A stretch of DNA of 5,193 nt from Microcaldota archaeon. GTDB lineage: Archaea > Micrarchaeota > Micrarchaeia > Micrarchaeales > Micrarchaeaceae. Below the pieces are notes generated by a model. It was not told the origin of the DNA. It ran no database searches and was given only the letters and a program-made list of their open reading frames with translations. Positions 15-5,193 of this stretch are shown one piece after another; positions within the stretch are counted from its first letter, which is position 1; the number at the start of each line of letters is the position of its first letter. The stretch spans positions 1-5,193 of the forward strand of contig JAKASM010000039.1 in the NCBI GenBank assembly GCA_021819045.1, written 5' to 3'. Made by a program: the position numbers and the translations under genes.

Positions 15-33
15 AGCTTTGTTTAAAAAGTCC
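15..33 (+). repeat. Left terminal inverted repeat
   Basis: The sequence AGCTTTGTTTAAAAAGTCC is an exact reverse complement of 4633-4651. It contains the first of the GTTTAAAAAGT core motifs (21-31). A 19-bp perfect match at the two extremes of a transposase-bearing segment is very unlikely by chance. Confidence 0.8.
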
Positions 34-70
34 AAATCTGTTTAAGAAGTAAGTTTATTGTTTAAAAAGA
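21..70 (+). repeat. Left-end array of three GTTTAAAAAGT motifs
   Basis: Three same-direction copies are seen: 21-31 (GTTTAAAAAGT), 40-50 (GTTTAAGAAGT) and 60-70 (GTTTAAAAAGA). They begin 19 and 20 bp apart, close to two helical turns, so a protein bound to each would sit on the same DNA face. The likely binder is the transposase or the small DUF2080-like protein (inference). Read on the minus strand each full copy gives CTTTTTAAAC, so the array could also end leftward transcripts at T-runs. Confidence 0.7.
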
Positions 71-109
71 TAGGATAATAGATTTTTAAGGCTTCTCAGA
101 GCTATTAGC

Positions 110-205
110 TTATGCACAGGCAGCCATCGAAGTTCCGCTTATTAGAAGCATCATTACGAGGGCTAGGAATGCGAGCAGAGGGAGCCTGAGCTTCTGTGTT
201 TTCAT
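110..205 (-). CDS. 31-aa signal-peptide-like ORF, probably a remnant of an exported protein
   Basis: On the minus strand an ATG at 205-203 directly follows the TAG of the FkbM gene with no gap, and the frame runs to a TAA at 112-110. The peptide starts MKTQKLRLPLL, continues with a hydrophobic stretch (about residues 8-22, rich in L, A, V, M), then SGTSMAACA. This is a classic signal-peptide layout: basic N-terminus, hydrophobic core, polar end. MAAC near the C-terminus resembles a lipobox, and AxA-type cleavage is also possible. Nothing follows the signal, so it may be the start of an exported or lipoprotein gene cut off when cargo was captured, or a tiny membrane peptide. No strong ribosome site is visible; translation would be coupled to the FkbM gene. 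Confidence 0.4.
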   Translation of the reverse strand: MKTQKLRLPLLAFLALVMMLLISGTSMAACA

Positions 206-1003
206 CTATACCATCCTGATTGCAGCTATGACCTTCTCATCTATGTTAATGCGCCTAACTATAAATCCAGCATTTTCAAGTTTTTGTTTTATTGGTTCTG
301 TCCCTTTATGGCATTCGACAATTATCTCTCTGAATGCCCGAAGCACATTATCATTTGCTGGGAGAAGTATCTCATACTCTCCACCCTCGCAATCTAATTT
401 TAATACCCCATCTTCAATCTTATTTTTTTTTACTATATCCTCAAGCGTCAAAATCCTTACTTCCTTCCCGTTTTCAAACTCCATTAGAGATGAACTAGCA
501 TCAGCAACAAAGGCTGGTGGTATTTTTATAATCTTATTTCTAACACCAACCCCTTCATTTTTTAATTCAATCACCATCTGAAGATGGTTAAGGCTAATAT
601 TTTCAAGGGCTTCTTCATAGAGATTGGGGTAAGGTTCATAAGCAAAAACCTTCCTTGCTCCATTCACTGCGAAATAAATTGGAGTATCTCCCATATTCGC
701 TCCGATGTCAACAACCTGTCTGTCTTTGAAATCAAGAGAACCATACTGCCTTGCTGTAACTAACTGAGTATGCAACATTTCTATAGCCCATAAAGCTCTT
801 TCTCTATTTGGAAGGAGGAAAAGGAGAATTCTTCCCTTATCGGAGAGCTTTAGCAGGTATTTACTTCCATCGCTTGAAATCTTCAATGTTGCACCTTCTT
901 TATAAATTATTTCGGTGGGTTGCCCTGTTAATTTGAATCTTGCTACTTTCCACAGGTCATTTGTTATGGAATTGATGTATAATATATTTTTTATAAAGTT
1001 CAT
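206..1003 (-). CDS. FkbM-family SAM-dependent methyltransferase
   Basis: This 265-aa protein is predicted to transfer a methyl group from S-adenosylmethionine to an oxygen or nitrogen of a small molecule or glycan. FkbM-type enzymes often sit in polysaccharide or natural-product loci; the substrate here is unknown. The SAM-binding motif I is VDIGANMGD at about residues 98-106, followed by FAYEPY (120-125), whose acidic E123 should hold the SAM ribose. The family's typical KLDCEGGEYE lies at about 202-211. The first 90 residues are less distinctive and contain no signal peptide. The start is supported by GGTGA at 1014-1010, 6 nt before the ATG. A TATA-like TTAATATAAG at 1033-1024 could give a transcript starting close to the ATG. 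It lies inside the transposon as cargo, 40 bp after a truncated DNA methyltransferase, and is followed at once by the signal-peptide ORF. It looks intact. Confidence 0.85.
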   Translation of the reverse strand: MNFIKNILYINSITNDLWKVARFKLTGQPTEIIYKEGATLKISSDGSKYLLKLSDKGRILLFLLPNRERALWAIEMLHTQLVTARQYGSLDFKDRQVVDIGANMGDTPIYFAVNGARKVFAYEPYPNLYEEALENISLNHLQMVIELKNEGVGVRNKIIKIPPAFVADASSSLMEFENGKEVRILTLEDIVKKNKIEDGVLKLDCEGGEYEILLPANDNVLRAFREIIVECHKGTEPIKQKLENAGFIVRRINIDEKVIAAIRMV

Positions 1004-1023
1004 CTCAATTCACCACACTGAAG

Positions 1024-1033
1024 CTTATATTAA
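1024..1033 (-). promoter_or_regulatory. Candidate TATA box for the FkbM gene
   Basis: The minus strand reads TTAATATAAG here, centred about 26 bases before the FkbM ATG. Archaeal transcripts start about 25 bases after the TATA box, so this would give an almost leaderless message. That sits awkwardly with the GGTGA ribosome site at 1014-1010. The gene may instead be read from the transposase promoter. Confidence 0.35.
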
Positions 1034-1043
1034 ATGACCTCTC

Positions 1044-1412
1044 TTAATTGAAATGCCCTACGCTTATGTCCTCTTCTGGTATTGATATGTGCTTTATCCA
1101 GTGTATTGTGTTTTGCAATCTTAAGTTTTCATTATTTACTCTTTTAGCTACTTCAAACGCCTTTAATTCATCGCTTGATTTATCTCCAATGTTGAAGAAC
1201 AGCGACCCTTTTTCCTTAAGGACTCTCTTGCAAGCTTTTCCGAACTCTGTCATCCAGTTGAAATAGTCCTCAAATTCCATGTCATCTTTGTGCGAGTTAT
1301 ATTCTACTCCAATGTTGTAAGGCGGGGAAGTAATGATTATGTCGATGCTATTTTGCTCAAGCTCCTTCATTCCTTTTATGCAATCAATCTTGTAAATCTC
1401 GTTTAGCTTCAT
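1044..1412 (-). CDS. Truncated DNA methyltransferase (N-terminal half, SPPY type)
   Basis: The 122-aa product matches the start of site-specific DNA N4-cytosine/N6-adenine methyltransferases of restriction-modification type: IYKIDCIKGMKELEQNSID leads into TSPPYNIG, catalytic motif IV at about residues 28-35. FEDYF, VLKEKGSLFFNIGDK and LQNTIHWIKHISIP follow in the family's order. Intact relatives are usually about 300 aa. This one stops after GHFN, just where they continue into target recognition and the C-terminal FxGxG SAM-binding motif. As it stands it should not bind SAM in the usual way, so it is probably inactive. The next 40 bases do not restore the missing part in another frame. Its ATG shares one base with the transposase stop (TAATG), and AGTGGT lies 3 nt before the ATG, so translation is likely coupled. 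Confidence 0.75.
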   Translation of the reverse strand: MKLNEIYKIDCIKGMKELEQNSIDIIITSPPYNIGVEYNSHKDDMEFEDYFNWMTEFGKACKRVLKEKGSLFFNIGDKSSDELKAFEVAKRVNNENLRLQNTIHWIKHISIPEEDISVGHFN

Positions 1413-2626
1413 TAAACCACTTCTAAGAAATTAGGCTCTATGCCTAACTCATTCATCTCTTGGATAAGCACACATATATTATGACATAAAACCTTTAATA
1501 GCACTTCGTTTACCTGTGCAATTTTATCCTTGCTTCTTACCAAGTCAGTGAATTTCGCCTTTATCATATTGTTGGTGCTTTCCACGTTAGACCTCAAATG
1601 ATAATGTTGCAAGAATTCGTCTCTGCTATATACAAAATAATTGAGCATCCTTCTCCACAACTTTGACCTGTTCCCCTTGCTACTGCTGTTTCCCCATGGA
1701 GACGCATTGCTCTTGAATGGGATATATGCGGTTCCGCCGAGTTCACGAATCGCATTGTAGTTATCCTTTGAGTTATAGGCTTTGTCTGCCGAAATCTCTT
1801 CTATTACAAATCCGTTGTCGTGTGTCTTTTCTGCGAGAGGAATGAACTGAAGGCTGTCCGCACTATTTCCATCAAGAACTTCTACGCTTGTAATTATATT
1901 GGTCTTGACACCAGTGCAGATGTGAGCTTTGACCCACTGGTGCTGCTGCTTCGTTTTATGCTTCTCTTTGCAGTAGTCGTTGAACTTTGTGGTGCGAAAT
2001 CCAGTGCTGTCTATTGCGAACCTTGTCTCCACGCTTCTTAGTGGCAAAGATGAAAGAGTAATAAGATTTTGCAGAAGAGGGGTTAATTGTTCTTCCCTCA
2101 TGTAGTTGCTTACAGAGCTATAAGAACAGCCCTGCACTGCATAGCCCTTTTCTAACGCCAAACGCATATCGGTCATAAAGCGTCTTAGTGAGAAGGTTGT
2201 ATAGACCTTCAAGGCAGAATTAAAGACCATGTCCGCAAGACTTAGTTTCGGTCTCCCGAAGCGATGTAGCGGCTCTTCTATTTCTTTGCATAGATTAGAT
2301 AGCAGCTTCATAAACAAATCTTTCTCGTTTATCTGCGATGTATTGTAGGCAGCCCAATTTTGAGAATAAGACACCCTCTTCACTTCTAGTATTTTCTTCC
2401 CTTTTGAATCAAACCATTTCAATATCGTTATCTGAATTGCCAGCGCATGTTTGCATGGCTGGTTTCTAAGCTGGAAATCTGGGCATGTACAAGTAAAGGA
2501 CTCTCCTCTTCTTTCGACCAAATAGCTTCCGTTTCCGCTCTGCGAAGGCACTACCCAACCCCTTTGTGTTCTGGTTATGCCTGATGCCATCACAATCTGT
2601 TCCGCTTTCGTTTTTCTCATATCCAT
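1412..2626 (-). CDS. DDE transposase with N-terminal SWIM zinc finger
   Basis: This 404-aa protein should cut and join the element ends. An N-terminal SWIM zinc finger, CxCx9CxH, uses C46, C48, C58 and H60 and probably binds DNA. The RNase H-like catalytic core follows: FAIDSTGF gives D206, ISADKAYNS gives D281, and HYHLRSNVEST gives E349, a complete DDE triad with IS4/IS5-like context. The C-terminal helix-rich part (about 370-395) closes the fold. No frameshift or internal stop is seen, so it may be active. The ATG at 2626 is favoured over the one at 2620 because AGTGAT lies 3 nt before it, the same spacing as other genes here. A TATA box at 2680-2671 would start the transcript about 24 bases upstream. 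It diverges from the DUF2080 gene and overlaps the methyltransferase fragment. The exact IS family cannot be named without a search. Confidence 0.9.
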   Translation of the reverse strand: MDMRKTKAEQIVMASGITRTQRGWVVPSQSGNGSYLVERRGESFTCTCPDFQLRNQPCKHALAIQITILKWFDSKGKKILEVKRVSYSQNWAAYNTSQINEKDLFMKLLSNLCKEIEEPLHRFGRPKLSLADMVFNSALKVYTTFSLRRFMTDMRLALEKGYAVQGCSYSSVSNYMREEQLTPLLQNLITLSSLPLRSVETRFAIDSTGFRTTKFNDYCKEKHKTKQQHQWVKAHICTGVKTNIITSVEVLDGNSADSLQFIPLAEKTHDNGFVIEEISADKAYNSKDNYNAIRELGGTAYIPFKSNASPWGNSSSKGNRSKLWRRMLNYFVYSRDEFLQHYHLRSNVESTNNMIKAKFTDLVRSKDKIAQVNEVLLKVLCHNICVLIQEMNELGIEPNFLEVV

Positions 2627-2638
2627 GCTATCACTTTC

Positions 2639-2670
2639 CTATGTTCTTTACATATATATTATGGACATAG
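2639..2670. promoter_or_regulatory. Possible operator at the transposase transcription start
   Basis: CTATGT at 2639-2644 and ACATAG at 2665-2670 form a 6-bp inverted repeat. Between them lies an imperfect AT palindrome, CATATATATTATG (2651-2663). The pair covers the predicted transposase start of transcription, so a repressor bound here would block it. Because the region is so AT-rich the match could be chance. Confidence 0.25.
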
Positions 2671-2680
2671 CATATATAAA
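2671..2680 (-). promoter_or_regulatory. TATA box of the transposase gene
   Basis: The minus strand reads TTTATATATG here. A start of transcription about 25 bases on falls near 2650 and leaves a short leader holding AGTGAT (2635-2630) before the ATG at 2626. Confidence 0.6.
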
Positions 2681-2714
2681 TACCTTTCGGTTTGGGATTG
2701 ATTCTTCCGATAGC

Positions 2715-2722
2715 TTTATATA
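2715..2722 (+). promoter_or_regulatory. TATA box of the DUF2080-like gene
   Basis: TTTATATA lies 24-31 bases before the ATG at 2746, so transcription should begin almost at the start codon, giving a leaderless message. No Shine-Dalgarno is seen before this ATG, which agrees. The many ATATATA runs downstream make the exact box uncertain. Confidence 0.5.
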
Positions 2723-2745
2723 TCTATAAGATATATAAGATATAT

Positions 2746-2913
2746 ATGGCACGACAGAAGAAGATACTTACTTTGCAGAGACCTATCGAATTTGAGGAAG
2801 TTATACAGAAAAGTGTAGAGACTTTTGGAACAGGTAGCGGACATATTTCAGGATTAGGAAGTTATGTTGGGCGAACCGCCATAATCATAATTCTGCCAAA
2901 GGGTGCAAAGTAA
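2746..2913 (+). CDS. DUF2080-like transposon-associated small protein
   Basis: The 55-aa product begins MARQKK. The stretch FEEVIQKSVETFGTGSGHIS through LGSYVGRTAIIIILP (about residues 16-51) follows the pattern of archaeal DUF2080 'transposon-encoded' proteins: a K-x-V-x-x-x-GNSG-like turn, then a VGK-x-V-x-V-I-L strand, similar to the AbrB/SpoVT swapped-hairpin DNA-binding fold. Known members accompany archaeal transposases; their job is not firmly established, and DNA binding or regulation of transposition is inferred. The upstream in-frame ATG at 2692 is rejected because it would translate the TATA region into a Tyr/Ile run. The stop overlaps the next ORF start (TAATG). It is unusual in diverging from the transposase rather than preceding it. 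Confidence 0.65.
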   Translation: MARQKKILTLQRPIEFEEVIQKSVETFGTGSGHISGLGSYVGRTAIIIILPKGAK

Positions 2914-3125
2914 TGAACTTTATAGTAGAATGGGATAATGAAGATGTCAAACTCATAGCAGAGATGAAAGATTTTGAAAACAATTGGAAGCACAAAAAGC
3001 CATGCAAGGAATACATCAAAAATAGATACTGCGTTCATCTTGAACAGGCGCAAAGCAAAAAGTTCAAAAGTCGAGTAAGGGCGCATCTGACAATGCTATC
3101 TTCTTTCTTCAAGTCCACACCATAA
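2913..3125 (+). CDS. 70-aa hypothetical protein coupled to the DUF2080-like gene
   Basis: I do not recognise this protein. Its ATG shares a base with the stop of the DUF2080-like gene (TAATG), a good sign that it is translated. GGTG lies 7 nt before the ATG. The N-terminal half is acidic (VEWDNEDVKLIAEMKDFENN) and the C-terminal half strongly basic (KKPCKEYIKNRY, QSKKFKSRVRAH), which would suit a small nucleic-acid-binding or partner protein. It has two cysteines (about 31 and 40), too few for a zinc site alone, and no signal or membrane segment. Together with the DUF2080 gene it may form an accessory module for transposition; this is inferred from position only. Confidence 0.6.
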   Translation: MNFIVEWDNEDVKLIAEMKDFENNWKHKKPCKEYIKNRYCVHLEQAQSKKFKSRVRAHLTMLSSFFKSTP

Positions 3126-3134
3126 ACGGAAGGG

Positions 3135-3142
3135 TTAAATAG
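3135..3142 (+). promoter_or_regulatory. TATA-like box for the winged-helix/TGT-like pair
   Basis: TTAAATAG starts 45 bases before the ATG at 3180, just after the stop of the 70-aa ORF. Transcription would start near 3165, leaving a leader of about 15 bases with CGTGAG (3171-3176) 3 nt before the ATG. This suggests the pair has its own promoter. Confidence 0.45.
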
Positions 3143-3179
3143 TTATGTATAGCCAATATCTATTGAAGAACGTGAGGGT

Positions 3180-3476
3180 ATGGCAAAGATACTACAAGGT
3201 TGGCTGAACAGGAGATATTTGCTTATGGCAAACCACTTCAAGACAGATACCTTTAATTTCAGCGACGCAAAGAAATTTATAAAAAAGAACTTCGGGGATT
3301 CAGACCAAATGATAAGCCTGATACTTTCAGAATTCAAAAGAGCGGGCTGGTTGAATGTTGAGATAGACCCACAGGATTCAAGGAAGAGGCGATATTCCCT
3401 AATTATGATGTATAACAAAGATGCACTTAACGACTTGGTCGCTGAGATAAAAAGTGAGAAACGTGAACGAAATTAG
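3180..3476 (+). CDS. Winged-helix DNA-binding protein paired with a TGT-like enzyme
   Basis: The 98-aa product looks like a winged helix-turn-helix. WLNRRYLLMANHF (about 8-20) opens the domain. FNFSDAKKFIKKNFGDSDQMISLILSEFKRAGWL (about 25-58) gives two helices with a recognition helix. NVEIDPQDSRKRRYSLI (about 59-75) forms the wing, rich in R and K. The final 20 residues are a charged helix. This pattern resembles small archaeal wHTH proteins that regulate or partner the gene they overlap. Here it overlaps the next gene by 23 bases (or 14 if the later GTG is used). It could repress the pair, guide the enzyme to DNA, or both; the sequence does not decide. CGTGAG-N3-ATG supports the start. Confidence 0.65.
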   Translation: MAKILQGWLNRRYLLMANHFKTDTFNFSDAKKFIKKNFGDSDQMISLILSEFKRAGWLNVEIDPQDSRKRRYSLIMMYNKDALNDLVAEIKSEKRERN

Positions 3477-4596
3477 TATAGACGAAGTTGGAGGACTTGG
3501 AAGAAATACGAAAGTAAGAGCAATAATGCTTTCTGATACAAGGGTCGGTGATATACCTTTTCCTATGAGAATGATAACTGGCACAGACCTGAACCATGCA
3601 CAAAAGGTAATCAGCGTAGACGATAGCCTGACAATACCTTTCATTTCAAAAGTCTATGGCATAAATAGGTCATATACCAAACCCAAGCTTGATACTATTG
3701 CAAAAGGAAAAAGCGGCTGGGAAACTGAGTTCACCCAAATAATCGCCGATGCGAAAAGAAAAGATGGTGTGCTTACGGCACTTCTCTCAAACATAGACCC
3801 AGCAATTGCAATAACAGATTCCCATGACGACCAGCTCATAATGTTGCAAGCTGGGCTTGATGTCGTTACTATCTTCGATAGTCGCCATATAGGAGACGTA
3901 GAACTTGCGGAGAGAATACGCAGAGACATAAAACTCATAAAGAACTTCGATAAGGAGAAAATTATTATCGTTAGGACTACATTGAGGCAACCGCTTGCAC
4001 TACTTGAGAGGAAACTCGACTTGATTTTTGGTATAGAAGAGATAAGTGGTGTCTTCGTGCAATATGGAAACCCAGACTATGCGTATGCGAAGCTGGCTCT
4101 GCTAAGAAAATATGCCAGAAAACCAAAATGGATTCACATGTTTGGTATGCCAAAATGGGACACGGACAAAAAGACCTCAATGATGCACGCATTGTTGCCA
4201 TTTTGTATAGACTCATTTTCACTGAGACGACCTAAGCCTTTCCAGCCAGACCATATTATAGAAGTCAAAAGGCTGAATTGGAGGGTGGGGGGGTATCTTG
4301 AATTCCCTAACGAGCACAGGCAGACCTATGAAGAAAGTCTTGATTGTCAAGTGGACTGCCCGCCAGAACATGAGAAGCGTGTCAAGGACATTCTTGATAA
4401 ATACAGCCCAGAAGATAGAATCTCAGAAGCCAGAATCCATGAGGCATATGAAAGCCAATACGGATTCAAAGAAAGCAGAATCGCTATACTGACTGGTAAG
4501 ACCGAGCTGTTCAAGCTTTATAAGGCAAAACCATTCTTGAGGGACTTCCTGCAAAGAGTAGAGAACATTGACCTCAGGATAAGACCGATAGGCTGA
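3454..4596 (+). CDS. Putative TGT/DpdA-like TIM-barrel protein (base-exchange enzyme family), divergent
   Basis: This 380-aa protein is not one I can name. Regular strands suggest a TIM barrel: AIAITD (117-122), VVTIFD (137-142), KIIIVRT (169-175), SGVFVQYGNP (198-207), KWIHMFGMP (225-233), FCIDSFS (250-256). The last two echo tRNA-guanine transglycosylase (TGT) HLFGxGxP and GVDLFDS, and DpdA-type DNA transglycosylases, which I recall carrying a DSxSW version. Behind them, C298, C302, H306 and ARIHEAYES with H329 resemble the TGT zinc region CPxC then LALHNLY. The residue at the TGT nucleophile position is Ser (255 or so), while D253 is kept, so activity or chemistry may differ. Full TGT or DpdA identity is an inference. 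The GTG at 3454 starts the longest frame, but GTG 3463, with AGTGAG 4 nt before it, fits the ribosome site better. It ends 4 bp before the right repeat array. Confidence 0.55.
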   Translation: MRNVNEISIDEVGGLGRNTKVRAIMLSDTRVGDIPFPMRMITGTDLNHAQKVISVDDSLTIPFISKVYGINRSYTKPKLDTIAKGKSGWETEFTQIIADAKRKDGVLTALLSNIDPAIAITDSHDDQLIMLQAGLDVVTIFDSRHIGDVELAERIRRDIKLIKNFDKEKIIIVRTTLRQPLALLERKLDLIFGIEEISGVFVQYGNPDYAYAKLALLRKYARKPKWIHMFGMPKWDTDKKTSMMHALLPFCIDSFSLRRPKPFQPDHIIEVKRLNWRVGGYLEFPNEHRQTYEESLDCQVDCPPEHEKRVKDILDKYSPEDRISEARIHEAYESQYGFKESRIAILTGKTELFKLYKAKPFLRDFLQRVENIDLRIRPIG

Positions 4597-4600
4597 AGCT

Positions 4601-4645
4601 GTTTAAAAAGTAGAGATAATGTTTAATAAGTAGGACTTTTTAAAC
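4601..4645. repeat. Right-end array of three GTTTAAAAAGT motifs
   Basis: Two plus-strand copies, 4601-4611 (GTTTAAAAAGT) and 4621-4631 (GTTTAATAAGT), begin 20 bp apart. A third, inverted copy at 4635-4645 (ACTTTTTAAAC) is part of the terminal repeat. So the two inner copies point the opposite way from the tip copy, whereas all three left-end copies point the same way. The two ends are therefore distinguishable to a binding protein. Confidence 0.7.
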
Positions 4646-4651
4646 AAAGCT
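4633..4651 (-). repeat. Right terminal inverted repeat
   Basis: GGACTTTTTAAACAAAGCT is the exact reverse complement of 15-33 and marks the right end of the element. Confidence 0.8.
4637..4641 (+). terminator. Possible T-run terminator for the rightward genes
   Basis: Five T residues inside the right inverted repeat lie about 40 bases after the stop of the TGT-like gene. Archaeal polymerase can end at T-runs without a hairpin, so the element end may also stop outward transcription. Five Ts is near the lower limit. Confidence 0.3.
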
Positions 4652-4669
4652 TGCAAGCCCTGCAAGCCC
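4652..4669 (+). repeat. Two tandem copies of TGCAAGCCC next to the right end
   Basis: TGCAAGCCC occurs at 4652-4660 and 4661-4669, directly outside the element, and is followed by AAGCCCC. It does not recur in the 14 bases of left flank, so it is not a target duplication as far as can be seen. Some of these bases could pair with GGCTTG at 4691-4696, and TCCCCA/TGGGGA (4681-4686 and 4698-4703) forms a nested stem; this may be the tail of an interrupted host transcript. Confidence 0.35.
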
Positions 4670-4720
4670 AAGCCCCTCGCTCCCCACGCTGGCTTGATGG
4701 GGATGCAGAGAAGGTGCTAG

Positions 4721-4730
4721 TTTTAAATAT
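4721..4730 (+). promoter_or_regulatory. TATA box of the LRV/HEAT-like gene
   Basis: TTTTAAATAT lies about 36 bases before the ATG at 4762. Transcription would begin near 4751, leaving a short leader with AGTGAT (4753-4758) 3 nt before the ATG. The same layout recurs before the gene at 5156. Confidence 0.6.
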
Positions 4731-4761
4731 TTCTTAGAGTAGAGCTTATTGCAGTGATAAA

Positions 4762-5091
4762 ATGCCGATGCCTGCACCGCATGCTAAAGAAGCCCCGCCC
4801 ACGAACGAATCGCTGGAGCACCTCAGGGACGCAGTATACAGACTGGCTAGAAACCCTGCCGTAACCTTTGAACAGCTGGAGCCCTTCACCCGCCATCCTG
4901 ACAAGGAGCTGAGGGCTATACTAGCGCTGAATACGCGCGATCCGAGAATACTGGAAATACTGTCCAAAGACAAGGAATGGGCGGTTAGGGAGGAAGTCTC
5001 GATGAACCACTGCAGGACCCCAGCCATAACAGAAAGGCTGAGGACTGATGAGAATCCCTCTGTTAGGTACCACATAAAGAATTCCGCCTGA
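4762..5091 (+). CDS. Small LRV/HEAT-like helical repeat protein
   Basis: The 109-aa product has a Pro-rich start (about 1-14), one helix, then about three repeats of 25 residues: 28-53 (NPAVTFEQLEPFTRHPDKELRA), 54-78 (TRDPRILEILSKDKEWAVRE) and 79-104 (CRTPAITERLRTDENPSVRY). Each has the leucine-rich-variant pattern: N/D-P, a helix with L-x-x-L, then D-x-x-x-x-VR. Such repeats stack into a curved solenoid used for protein binding; the partner is unknown. There is no signal peptide, membrane segment or iron-sulfur cysteine cluster (one Cys only). The ATG at 4762 is supported by AGTGAT-N3-ATG, over the in-frame ATG at 4768. It lies outside the element in DNA richer in G and C, so it is taken as a host gene. 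A minus-strand ORF over the same bases is a shadow. Confidence 0.75.
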   Translation: MPMPAPHAKEAPPTNESLEHLRDAVYRLARNPAVTFEQLEPFTRHPDKELRAILALNTRDPRILEILSKDKEWAVREEVSMNHCRTPAITERLRTDENPSVRYHIKNSA

Positions 5092-5116
5092 AGCCCAAGA
5101 TCGGTGTGTTGCTAGT

Positions 5117-5126
5117 TTATATATCA
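5117..5126 (+). promoter_or_regulatory. TATA box of the gene starting at 5156
   Basis: TTTATATATC lies about 39 bases before the ATG at 5156, at nearly the same distance as in the gene before it, and is followed by GCAGTGAT ending 3 nt before the start codon. Confidence 0.6.
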
Positions 5127-5155
5127 TTTGAAATAGAGTTTAGTGCAGTGATTGA

Positions 5156-5193
5156 ATGCCTGGCGGACAAGGACAAAAATCAGCAGAACCAGC
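5156..5193 (+). CDS. Start of a further gene, cut by the window edge
   Basis: An ATG at 5156 opens a frame that reads MPGGQGQKSAEP and runs off the end. Promoter and ribosome site (AGTGAT 3 nt upstream) match those of the preceding gene, which makes the start convincing. Too little protein is present to name it. The hydrophilic Gly/Gln/Pro-rich start is a little like the low-complexity start of the LRV-like protein, so it could be a tandem paralogue. Confidence 0.6.
   Translation, partial: MPGGQGQKSAEP

Follow-up and report, generated by a model that had tools for sequence, protein, structure and literature searches.

The window analysed here, a 5,193-nucleotide stretch of DNA from a Microcaldota archaeon, carries at positions 15–4651 an element that very probably belongs to a family of cargo transposons present in Micrarchaeota and in at least one Diapherotrites genome. 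Members of this family would combine a single IS5/IS903-like transposase with an exchangeable cargo rich in methylases and restriction enzymes, duplicate 9 bp of their target and insert next to promoters. The ends, the duplications, the cargo, the target motif, one interrupted gene and the recurrence of one element (L051) at a second locus (L052) can all be read from the sequences. The window copy itself contains apparently decayed cargo (a shortened methylase) and an orphan module built around a protein of 380 amino acids (380 aa), and it lacks the 9-bp duplication.

Ends of the element

A perfect 19-bp inverted repeat is located at 15–33 and 4633–4651, as a sequence-only reading of this DNA had claimed. 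It exceeds the inverted repeats of all 300 first-order Markov shuffles of the window, the longest of which measures 15 bp. The core 12-mer of the repeat, TGTTTAAAAAGT, occurs six times in the window when up to one mismatch is allowed (0.06 copies expected; 0 of 200 shuffles). All six copies are at the ends: at 20–31, 39–50, 59–70, 4600–4611 and 4620–4631 on the + strand and at 4635–4646 on the − strand. They form two types of end, A and B, and are presumed to be transposase-binding sites. The end features are as follows:

15–33, + strand: left terminal inverted repeat, tip AGCTTTG; element start at 15, on the basis of family tips with 9-bp duplications
4633–4651, − strand: right terminal inverted repeat; element end at 4651, on the same basis
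20–70, + strand: end type A, three direct copies of TGTTTAAAAAGT with starts 19–20 bp apart (motif count; relatives by eye)
4600–4646: end type B, the tip copy at 4635–4646 (− strand) and two inner copies in the opposite sense at 4600–4611 and 4620–4631 (motif count; relatives by eye)

The sequence-only reading left the exact boundary open between 15–4651 and 19–4647, the latter with a 4-bp AGCT duplication. Scored on the window alone, the 19/4647 ends with AGCT rank first, because no 9-bp duplication flanks 15/4651. The relatives described below decide otherwise: their tips read [AG]GC[TC]TTG, and therefore the ends of the window element are 15 and 4651. Thus, the first option was right, whereas the second is ruled out by these tips and by the duplications of the family, which are 9 bp long. 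Within the window, the family tip motif is found on the + strand at 15, 1778 and 1925, and on the − strand only at 4651.

A family of bounded relatives

Relatives of the transposase (E ≤ 1e-30) are present in 56 of 301 Micrarchaeota genomes, in 74 rows; 12 of these rows, which are fragments or contig-edge pieces, were left out, and L003, a transposase fragment, was excluded. The first set contains 43 loci, 39 from the transposase search together with L001, L002, L007 and L008. A terminal inverted repeat (at least 12/16) with an exact 9-bp duplication is found at 20 of the 43 loci, compared with 3 of 1,806 cross-pairings of left and right flanks taken from different loci, one of the three being the L066/L067 pair discussed below. 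Using the tip motif (up to 12 kb) with an exact 9-bp duplication, 23 of the 43 loci are bounded against 1 of 1,806 cross-pairings; L051 and L052, which are one element at two sites, are counted twice among the 23. A somewhat relaxed tip pattern, applied without a null run to 18 further loci that are partial or more divergent, adds five bounded elements. In total, 28 of 61 loci with a related transposase are bounded, and the elements are 2,571–8,750 bp long (median 5,173 bp).

By eye, the subterminal layout of the relatives usually consists of three direct repeats about 20 bp apart at one end, and of a tip copy with inward copies in the opposite sense at the other. The repeat word differs between elements and changes with the tip (GTTTAA, GCTAAT, GTCC, GCACTT and GTATAA). 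In L050 (5654–8224), the two ends have different subterminal words, one of the GTTTAA type and the other of the GCTCCTAA type, yet are flanked by an exact 9-bp duplication; this element possibly has hybrid ends. Viral contigs contain no relative of the window transposase or of the 380-aa protein, and the four exact matches to the 18-nt tip among them are all without a transposase relative.

In L007 (genome G156), the transposase, a DUF2080-like protein, a 68-aa protein, a winged-helix protein and a 384-aa protein follow each other in the same order as in the window, between the tips GGCTTTGCACG and AGCTTTGCACG and a flanking 9-bp duplication, AAGAACCTT. This five-gene block inside homologous tips, together with the 28 of 61 loci bounded alike, bears out the earlier proposal of a cargo transposon with defined ends. 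L007 also splits a gene, residues 1–86 and 82–217 of which are carried in two pieces in G156; in G127, G129, G163, G120, G126 and G132, the same gene is a single, nearly full-length open frame (50–73% identity). We read its product as NADP-reductase-like.

Evidence of movement comes from L051 (G177), which recurs at 100% identity in L052 (G262; L051 positions 1–1908 and 1247–4975) with different flanks and different duplications. Because the list of 79 genomes in the family of G177 does not include G262, the pair looks like a recent transfer between families, with mis-binning of L051 or L052 possible. Beyond the L051 sequence, L052 has additional DNA in its interior and a 662-bp stretch that is repeated, a structure suggestive of partial duplication or of one insertion nested in another. 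Beside the L051 insertion point, a flank stretch with two TATA-like boxes (query positions 162–257) recurs at 74–100% identity in many genomes of the G177 family, and may precede a conserved gene or RNA.

Insertion target

Empty sites were rebuilt for 23 elements by removing the element and one copy of the duplication, and were aligned outward from the duplication. One side of the alignment reads GAAAGGTTTAAATATC, beginning at the first base after the 9-bp duplication. We take this sequence to be a B recognition element (BRE) followed by a TATA box, according to the archaeal consensus. The motif is asymmetric, with GAAAG and then TATA on one side. Its expectation-maximization score is 282.6, against a maximum of 95.1 over 60 sets of random intergenic positions. 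Ranked with a leave-one-out matrix, 21 of the 23 sites are in the top 1% of intergenic positions, and L002 is at 1.3%. The five sites added later, which are outside the training set, rank at 0.83%, 0.07%, 0.07%, 0% and 2.5% (four of five in the top 1%, all five in the top 2.5%).

The TATA-like box is also found at a fixed spacing. With intergenic positions of the same loci as controls, TTTAWATA occurs at −16 to −12 with at most one mismatch in 10 of 23 sites versus 4.3% of 13,754 positions (p = 1.3e-8), and with at most two mismatches in 17 of 23 versus 17.8% (p = 6e-9). The window tried first, −18 to −14, gives 4 and 12 of 23, for control means of 0.26 and 1.79. When the sites are shifted by more than 60 nt, the counts fall to means of 0.31 and 1.96 of 23 (maxima 2 and 6); at shifts of 27–31 nt they are back at 8–10 and 11–15, owing to the same near-palindromic box on the other strand. 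An ATG followed by at least 50 open codons lies 24–59 nt from the duplication in 12 of 23 sites, compared with 14.9% of controls (p = 3e-5), three flanks of less than 150 nt being too short. From these sequence features, we infer that the target motifs are working archaeal promoters.

Two other target rules were considered and rejected. A fixed orientation to the promoter does not hold, as orientation assigned by hand is mixed and either end of the element faces the promoter. Targeting of tRNA genes was likewise dismissed: ARAGORN reports a single tRNA gene near the 23 sites, a tRNA-Glu at L002. No title or abstract among the matches listed in open-licence PubMed Central describes insertion immediately upstream of a BRE and TATA box. 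To our knowledge, this target choice is unreported for a prokaryotic DNA transposon.

Genes and cargo

The repeat encloses seven open reading frames (ORFs), five besides the transposase and the DUF2080-like protein, in agreement with the gene content given by the sequence-only reading:

206–1003, − strand: FkbM-family methyltransferase, 265 aa (PF05050, 6.9e-16; TIGR01444, 6.7e-28)
1044–1412, − strand: N6/N4 DNA methyltransferase, shortened, 122 aa (PF01555, 67.2 bits; PADLOC MTase_II, 1.3e-37)
1412–2626, − strand: IS5-like DDE transposase, 404 aa, with an N-terminal SWIM zinc finger (PF01609, 4.1e-25; PF04434, 2.9e-7)
2746–2913, + strand: DUF2080-like small protein, 55 aa (PF09853, 16.0 bits, below the Pfam cut-off of 21.5; homologue in L007)
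2913–3125, + strand: protein of 70 aa belonging to the 380-aa module, with conserved C and H residues (BLAST family with L007, L008 and L054; L088 by eye)
3180–3476, + strand: winged-helix-like protein, 98 aa, partner of the 380-aa protein (weak MsvR match, 16.7 bits; BLAST family with L007, L008 and L054; L088 by eye)
3454–4596, + strand: orphan 380-aa protein, partly predicted beta/alpha units (protein search; AlphaFold2; hhalign)

The transposase contains the motifs AIDSTGF, ADKAY and RSNVE and scores 89.1 bits with PF01609 (cut-off 23), which places it in DDE_Tnp_1. With six ORFs besides the transposase, the element departs from the compact, transposase-only layout of the IS5 family. Pfam and NCBIfam searches of the window ORFs give no match to TnsA, TnsB, TnsC or Cas1 at E up to 1, and none to PolB. 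The FkbM gene is presumed to be cargo, and has no BLAST relative among the ORFs of the first 20 bounded elements. The N6/N4 methylase covers the first 89 of 221 profile positions; it is likely to be the remnant of a decayed methylase cargo, which fits the methylases found in 16 of the first 23 bounded relatives.

Cargo was scanned with Pfam and PADLOC on the ORFs of the elements, small ORFs being covered in part. A DNA methyltransferase above the Pfam gathering score is present in 14 of the first 20 bounded elements and in L070; L052 carries the identical methylase gene of L051, bringing the total to 16 of 23. The methylase is usually accompanied by a restriction enzyme or HsdS. The restriction partners are MamI-like enzymes (L051, L076 and L082), NgoPII (L073), an HNH enzyme (L085) and a PADLOC type II enzyme (L087); HsdS is found in L002 (below cut-off), L068, L071 (fused), L074 and L084. 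L057 contains DruA with a HerA-like gene and a NurA-like gene, the latter just below cut-off. The scanned ORFs of L007, L008, L050, L058, L059 and L061 give no defence match. Among the later five elements, L138 has a PF01555 gene, and BLAST links L128 and L134 to known cargo methylases; in L127 and L140, the transposase alone matched among 23 reference proteins.

Methylase genes are enriched inside the elements. In 20 genomes, 11 of 32 PF01555/PF02384 genes above cut-off sit in 94,418 bp out of about 19.3 Mb (0.49% of the DNA). The corresponding binomial p of about 2e-18 is approximate, because it was computed with 30 genes, against the 32 obtained after split rows had been merged by hand. L082 (3386–5246) encodes a 452-aa protein without a Pfam family and a 174-aa partner (TdeIII, 16.8 bits, below cut-off), and this pair occupies the slot of the 380-aa module in other elements.

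The 380-aa protein and its module

The window shares the 380-aa module with three bounded relatives, L007, L008 and L054. At E ≤ 0.001, the protein has six matches among 5.8 billion proteins, one of which is the window's own, and a seventh is found with a wider alignment of nine rows. Its alignment detects relatives in 3 of the 301 Micrarchaeota genomes, one of them weak, and a fourth (L054) is linked by BLAST. The protein has no family above cut-off in Pfam or NCBIfam, and nothing in PHROGs or PADLOC. Its relatives give weak matches only (the L088 relative scores 18.9 bits with DUF3686, cut-off 25), and its best sequence match in the PDB has an E of 0.24. The AlphaFold2 models are poor (predicted local distance difference test scores of 44.6 and 45.4), except for a beta-alpha core at about 121–235. 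The Foldseek lists for these models consist largely of various TIM-barrel enzymes and include no match at E ≤ 0.001; in the viral list, a phage queuine tRNA-ribosyltransferase is tenth (E 0.24).

Three features, C298, C302-P and H329-E, are invariant in six close members of the family, a pattern that we take to recall the zinc site of tRNA-guanine transglycosylase (TGT). Aligned to TGT by hhalign, the 380-aa protein scores 26.6 over 209 columns with a probability of 3.1%, compared with a maximum of 24.5 for 60 column-shuffled decoys and with 23.2 for the reversed profile. An initial run, which had a 698-aa sequence in the TGT set, scored 30.5, versus 18.7 for DpdA and 11.9–16.5 for four unrelated sets. 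The residue pattern and the profile and fold comparisons are only suggestive of a TGT/DpdA-like enzyme, which we offer as a lead and not as an assignment. Pfam TGT is found in none of nine Micrarchaeota searched, and the argument from preQ0 supply is therefore weakened for this protein.

Phage records yield no match for the 380-aa protein and, for a distant relative in L006, short chance-level pieces only. This relative (G034:C1, 1165–2301) is 17% identical, and a gene near it possibly encodes a nuclease-like protein. L088 (G353:C50, from the Diapherotrites-phylum set) has another gene order, with relatives of the 380-aa protein and of the winged-helix protein, a C/H-rich protein of 51 aa and a DUF2080-like ORF. 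A transposase fragment at the contig edge of L088 (36–239) corresponds to residues 90–156, with 38% identity.

Proposed mechanism and relation to known systems

We propose that a single SWIM-finger DDE transposase binds element-specific repeats that are arranged asymmetrically at the two ends. It would then excise or copy everything between the [AG]GC[TC]TTG tips, with duplication of 9 bp of target. The transposase may reach promoters through promoter-bound TBP/TFB, or through its own recognition of the BRE and TATA box, and the insertion point would lie directly upstream of these elements of a host gene, in either orientation. Because insertion would occur just upstream of the BRE, the core promoter would be spared and the neighbouring gene should be left intact. 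A more far-reaching version appears doubtful to us: in it, the family homes to core promoters by way of the TBP–TFB–DNA complex, much as Ty3 does through TFIIIB but as a DNA transposon, is dedicated to carrying restriction-modification and further DNA-modifying systems from one ultra-small archaeon to another, and has in the 380-aa protein an undescribed DpdA-like cargo that modifies DNA bases.

The tips of IS903 are of the GGCTTTG type. The family has in common with IS5/IS903-type elements a DDE_Tnp_1 transposase, this type of tip (AGCTTTG in the window) and a 9-bp target duplication, seen at 28 of 61 related loci and missing from the window copy. Two bacterial IS5 relatives, L097 and L098, have GGCGTTG and GGCTTTG tips, respectively, both with 9-bp duplications and about 1.05 kb long. 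The window family differs in its SWIM finger, its longer protein, its size of 2.6–8.8 kb with cargo, its subterminal repeat arrays and its promoter-adjacent target. Casposons are likewise archaeal and carry cargo, inverted repeats and target duplications, whereas the window has a DDE transposase and no Cas1 or PolB match. Among eukaryotic elements, the yeast retrotransposons Ty3 and Tf1 insert beside promoters and spare genes, and Ty3 uses TFIIIB, which contains TBP; the window family would share this placement, but is a prokaryotic DNA transposon with a targeting factor that is only conjectural. Tn7-like transposons resemble it in the arrays of transposase sites at their ends and in their defence and restriction-modification cargo, and differ from its single transposase, its target and its archaeal hosts, the window ORFs being without a Tns match.

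Benler et al. (2021, PMC8649781) report known innate immune systems in 26% of the transposons, and no Tn7-like transposons in archaea. Thaumarchaeal IS-like transposons are described as typically having one or two genes (PMC6563490). Of five terms looked for in the main text of a 2025 paper on Micrarchaeota (PMC12892359), only transposon occurs, a single time and within a reference; transposase, restriction, mobile and defense are absent. The spread of restriction-modification systems through DPANN archaea with reduced genomes could be accounted for by compact cargo transposons that rely on a single transposase.

Alternative explanations and the flanks of the window copy

It is highly improbable that only the transposase (and DUF2080-like protein) is mobile, as a simple insertion sequence, and that the 19-bp repeat encloses unrelated host genes by chance. 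Such an arrangement would resemble L097 and L098, with one gene in about 1.05 kb, and would suit FkbM, an ordinary host-type gene. Two weaker repeat pairs also flank a smaller transposase segment, at 992–1014/2902–2924 (23 nt, 78%) and at 982/2738 (12/16, with an A/T-rich 8-bp flank containing one mismatch). However, neither pair has the family tip, and the shorter element that the sequence-only reading had considered finds no counterpart, as no shorter pair has this tip on both strands in the window. Moreover, the window end repeats are confined to the two ends, the shortest of the 28 bounded elements is 2,571 bp, and L007 has the five-gene block again, between homologous ends and with a duplication. 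A preference for A/T-rich intergenic DNA and not for promoters is also very unlikely. Most sites are indeed intergenic, with A/T-rich flanks near the duplication, but TTTAWATA at its fixed spacing exceeds the same-locus intergenic controls, this signal is lost on shifting the sites by more than 60 nt, and both the leave-one-out ranking and the one-sided order of GAAAG and TATA point to a more specific target.

The genes for the 380-aa, winged-helix and 70-aa proteins could be accessory to transposition and not cargo, which we consider unlikely. They adjoin the transposase in the same order in the window, L007 and L054, all three have BLAST relatives in L008, and L088 has a transposase fragment at its contig edge in addition to relatives of the module. 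Nevertheless, L007, L008 and L054 alone among the first 20 bounded elements have the module, the others having different genes there, and gene order differs in L088. A more serious contender, although we place it somewhat short of even, is that the window copy is chimeric or rearranged: its ends would be genuine, and the flanks left of 15 and right of 4651 would derive from two insertions joined by recombination between copies or by assembly. The missing duplication would then be explained by the separate origins of the flanks, the 28 bounded relatives all having one. In contig G191:C8, which has two copies in opposite sense, the tip and 9-bp flank on the left of L066 match those on the right of L067, as exchange between copies would leave, which suggests that flanks can be exchanged. 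Against this, the left flank of the window copy has just 14 nt.

A promoter-adjacent cargo transposon family remains our preferred reading, and several observations weigh against it. The window copy has no 9-bp duplication at 15/4651 (CCATATTTC versus TGCAAGCCC), and its own target is unreadable, with 14 nt on the left and a right flank without the BRE and TATA motif. The remaining 33 of the 61 loci gave no bounded element. L007, inside a gene and not at a promoter, does not fit the target motif, and among four one-sided ends outside the bounded set, the motif is on the visible side in L055 and not in the other three. The TATA offset of −16 to −12 was picked after the sites had been seen. Only 12 of 23 sites have a nearby ATG frame of at least 50 codons, and a stricter automatic count of ORFs of at least 100 aa starting 25–75 nt on gives 5 of 23. 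The transposase scores 128.9 bits with the NCBIfam IS5 model NF033579, below the cut-off of 140, and the element is therefore filed as IS5-like and not as a plain IS5 member; a third bacterial IS5 relative, L099, has neither tip nor duplication. Finally, the genomes are mostly metagenome-assembled, so L051 or L052 may be mis-binned, and an empty site for L051 is found in none of the 79 family genomes, with only short pieces of at most 86 nt outside G177.

For the window copy, too, the search yielded no empty site: its left flank is 14 nt long, and the HEAT gene in its right flank is matched only weakly, in 5 of 301 genomes. In this right flank, two 45-bp stretches (4722–4766 and 5116–5160) are 76% identical, contain a TATA-like box and each end at a start codon, the first preceding the HEAT-like ORF and the second a following start. 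By their sequence, they are likely to be duplicated promoters.

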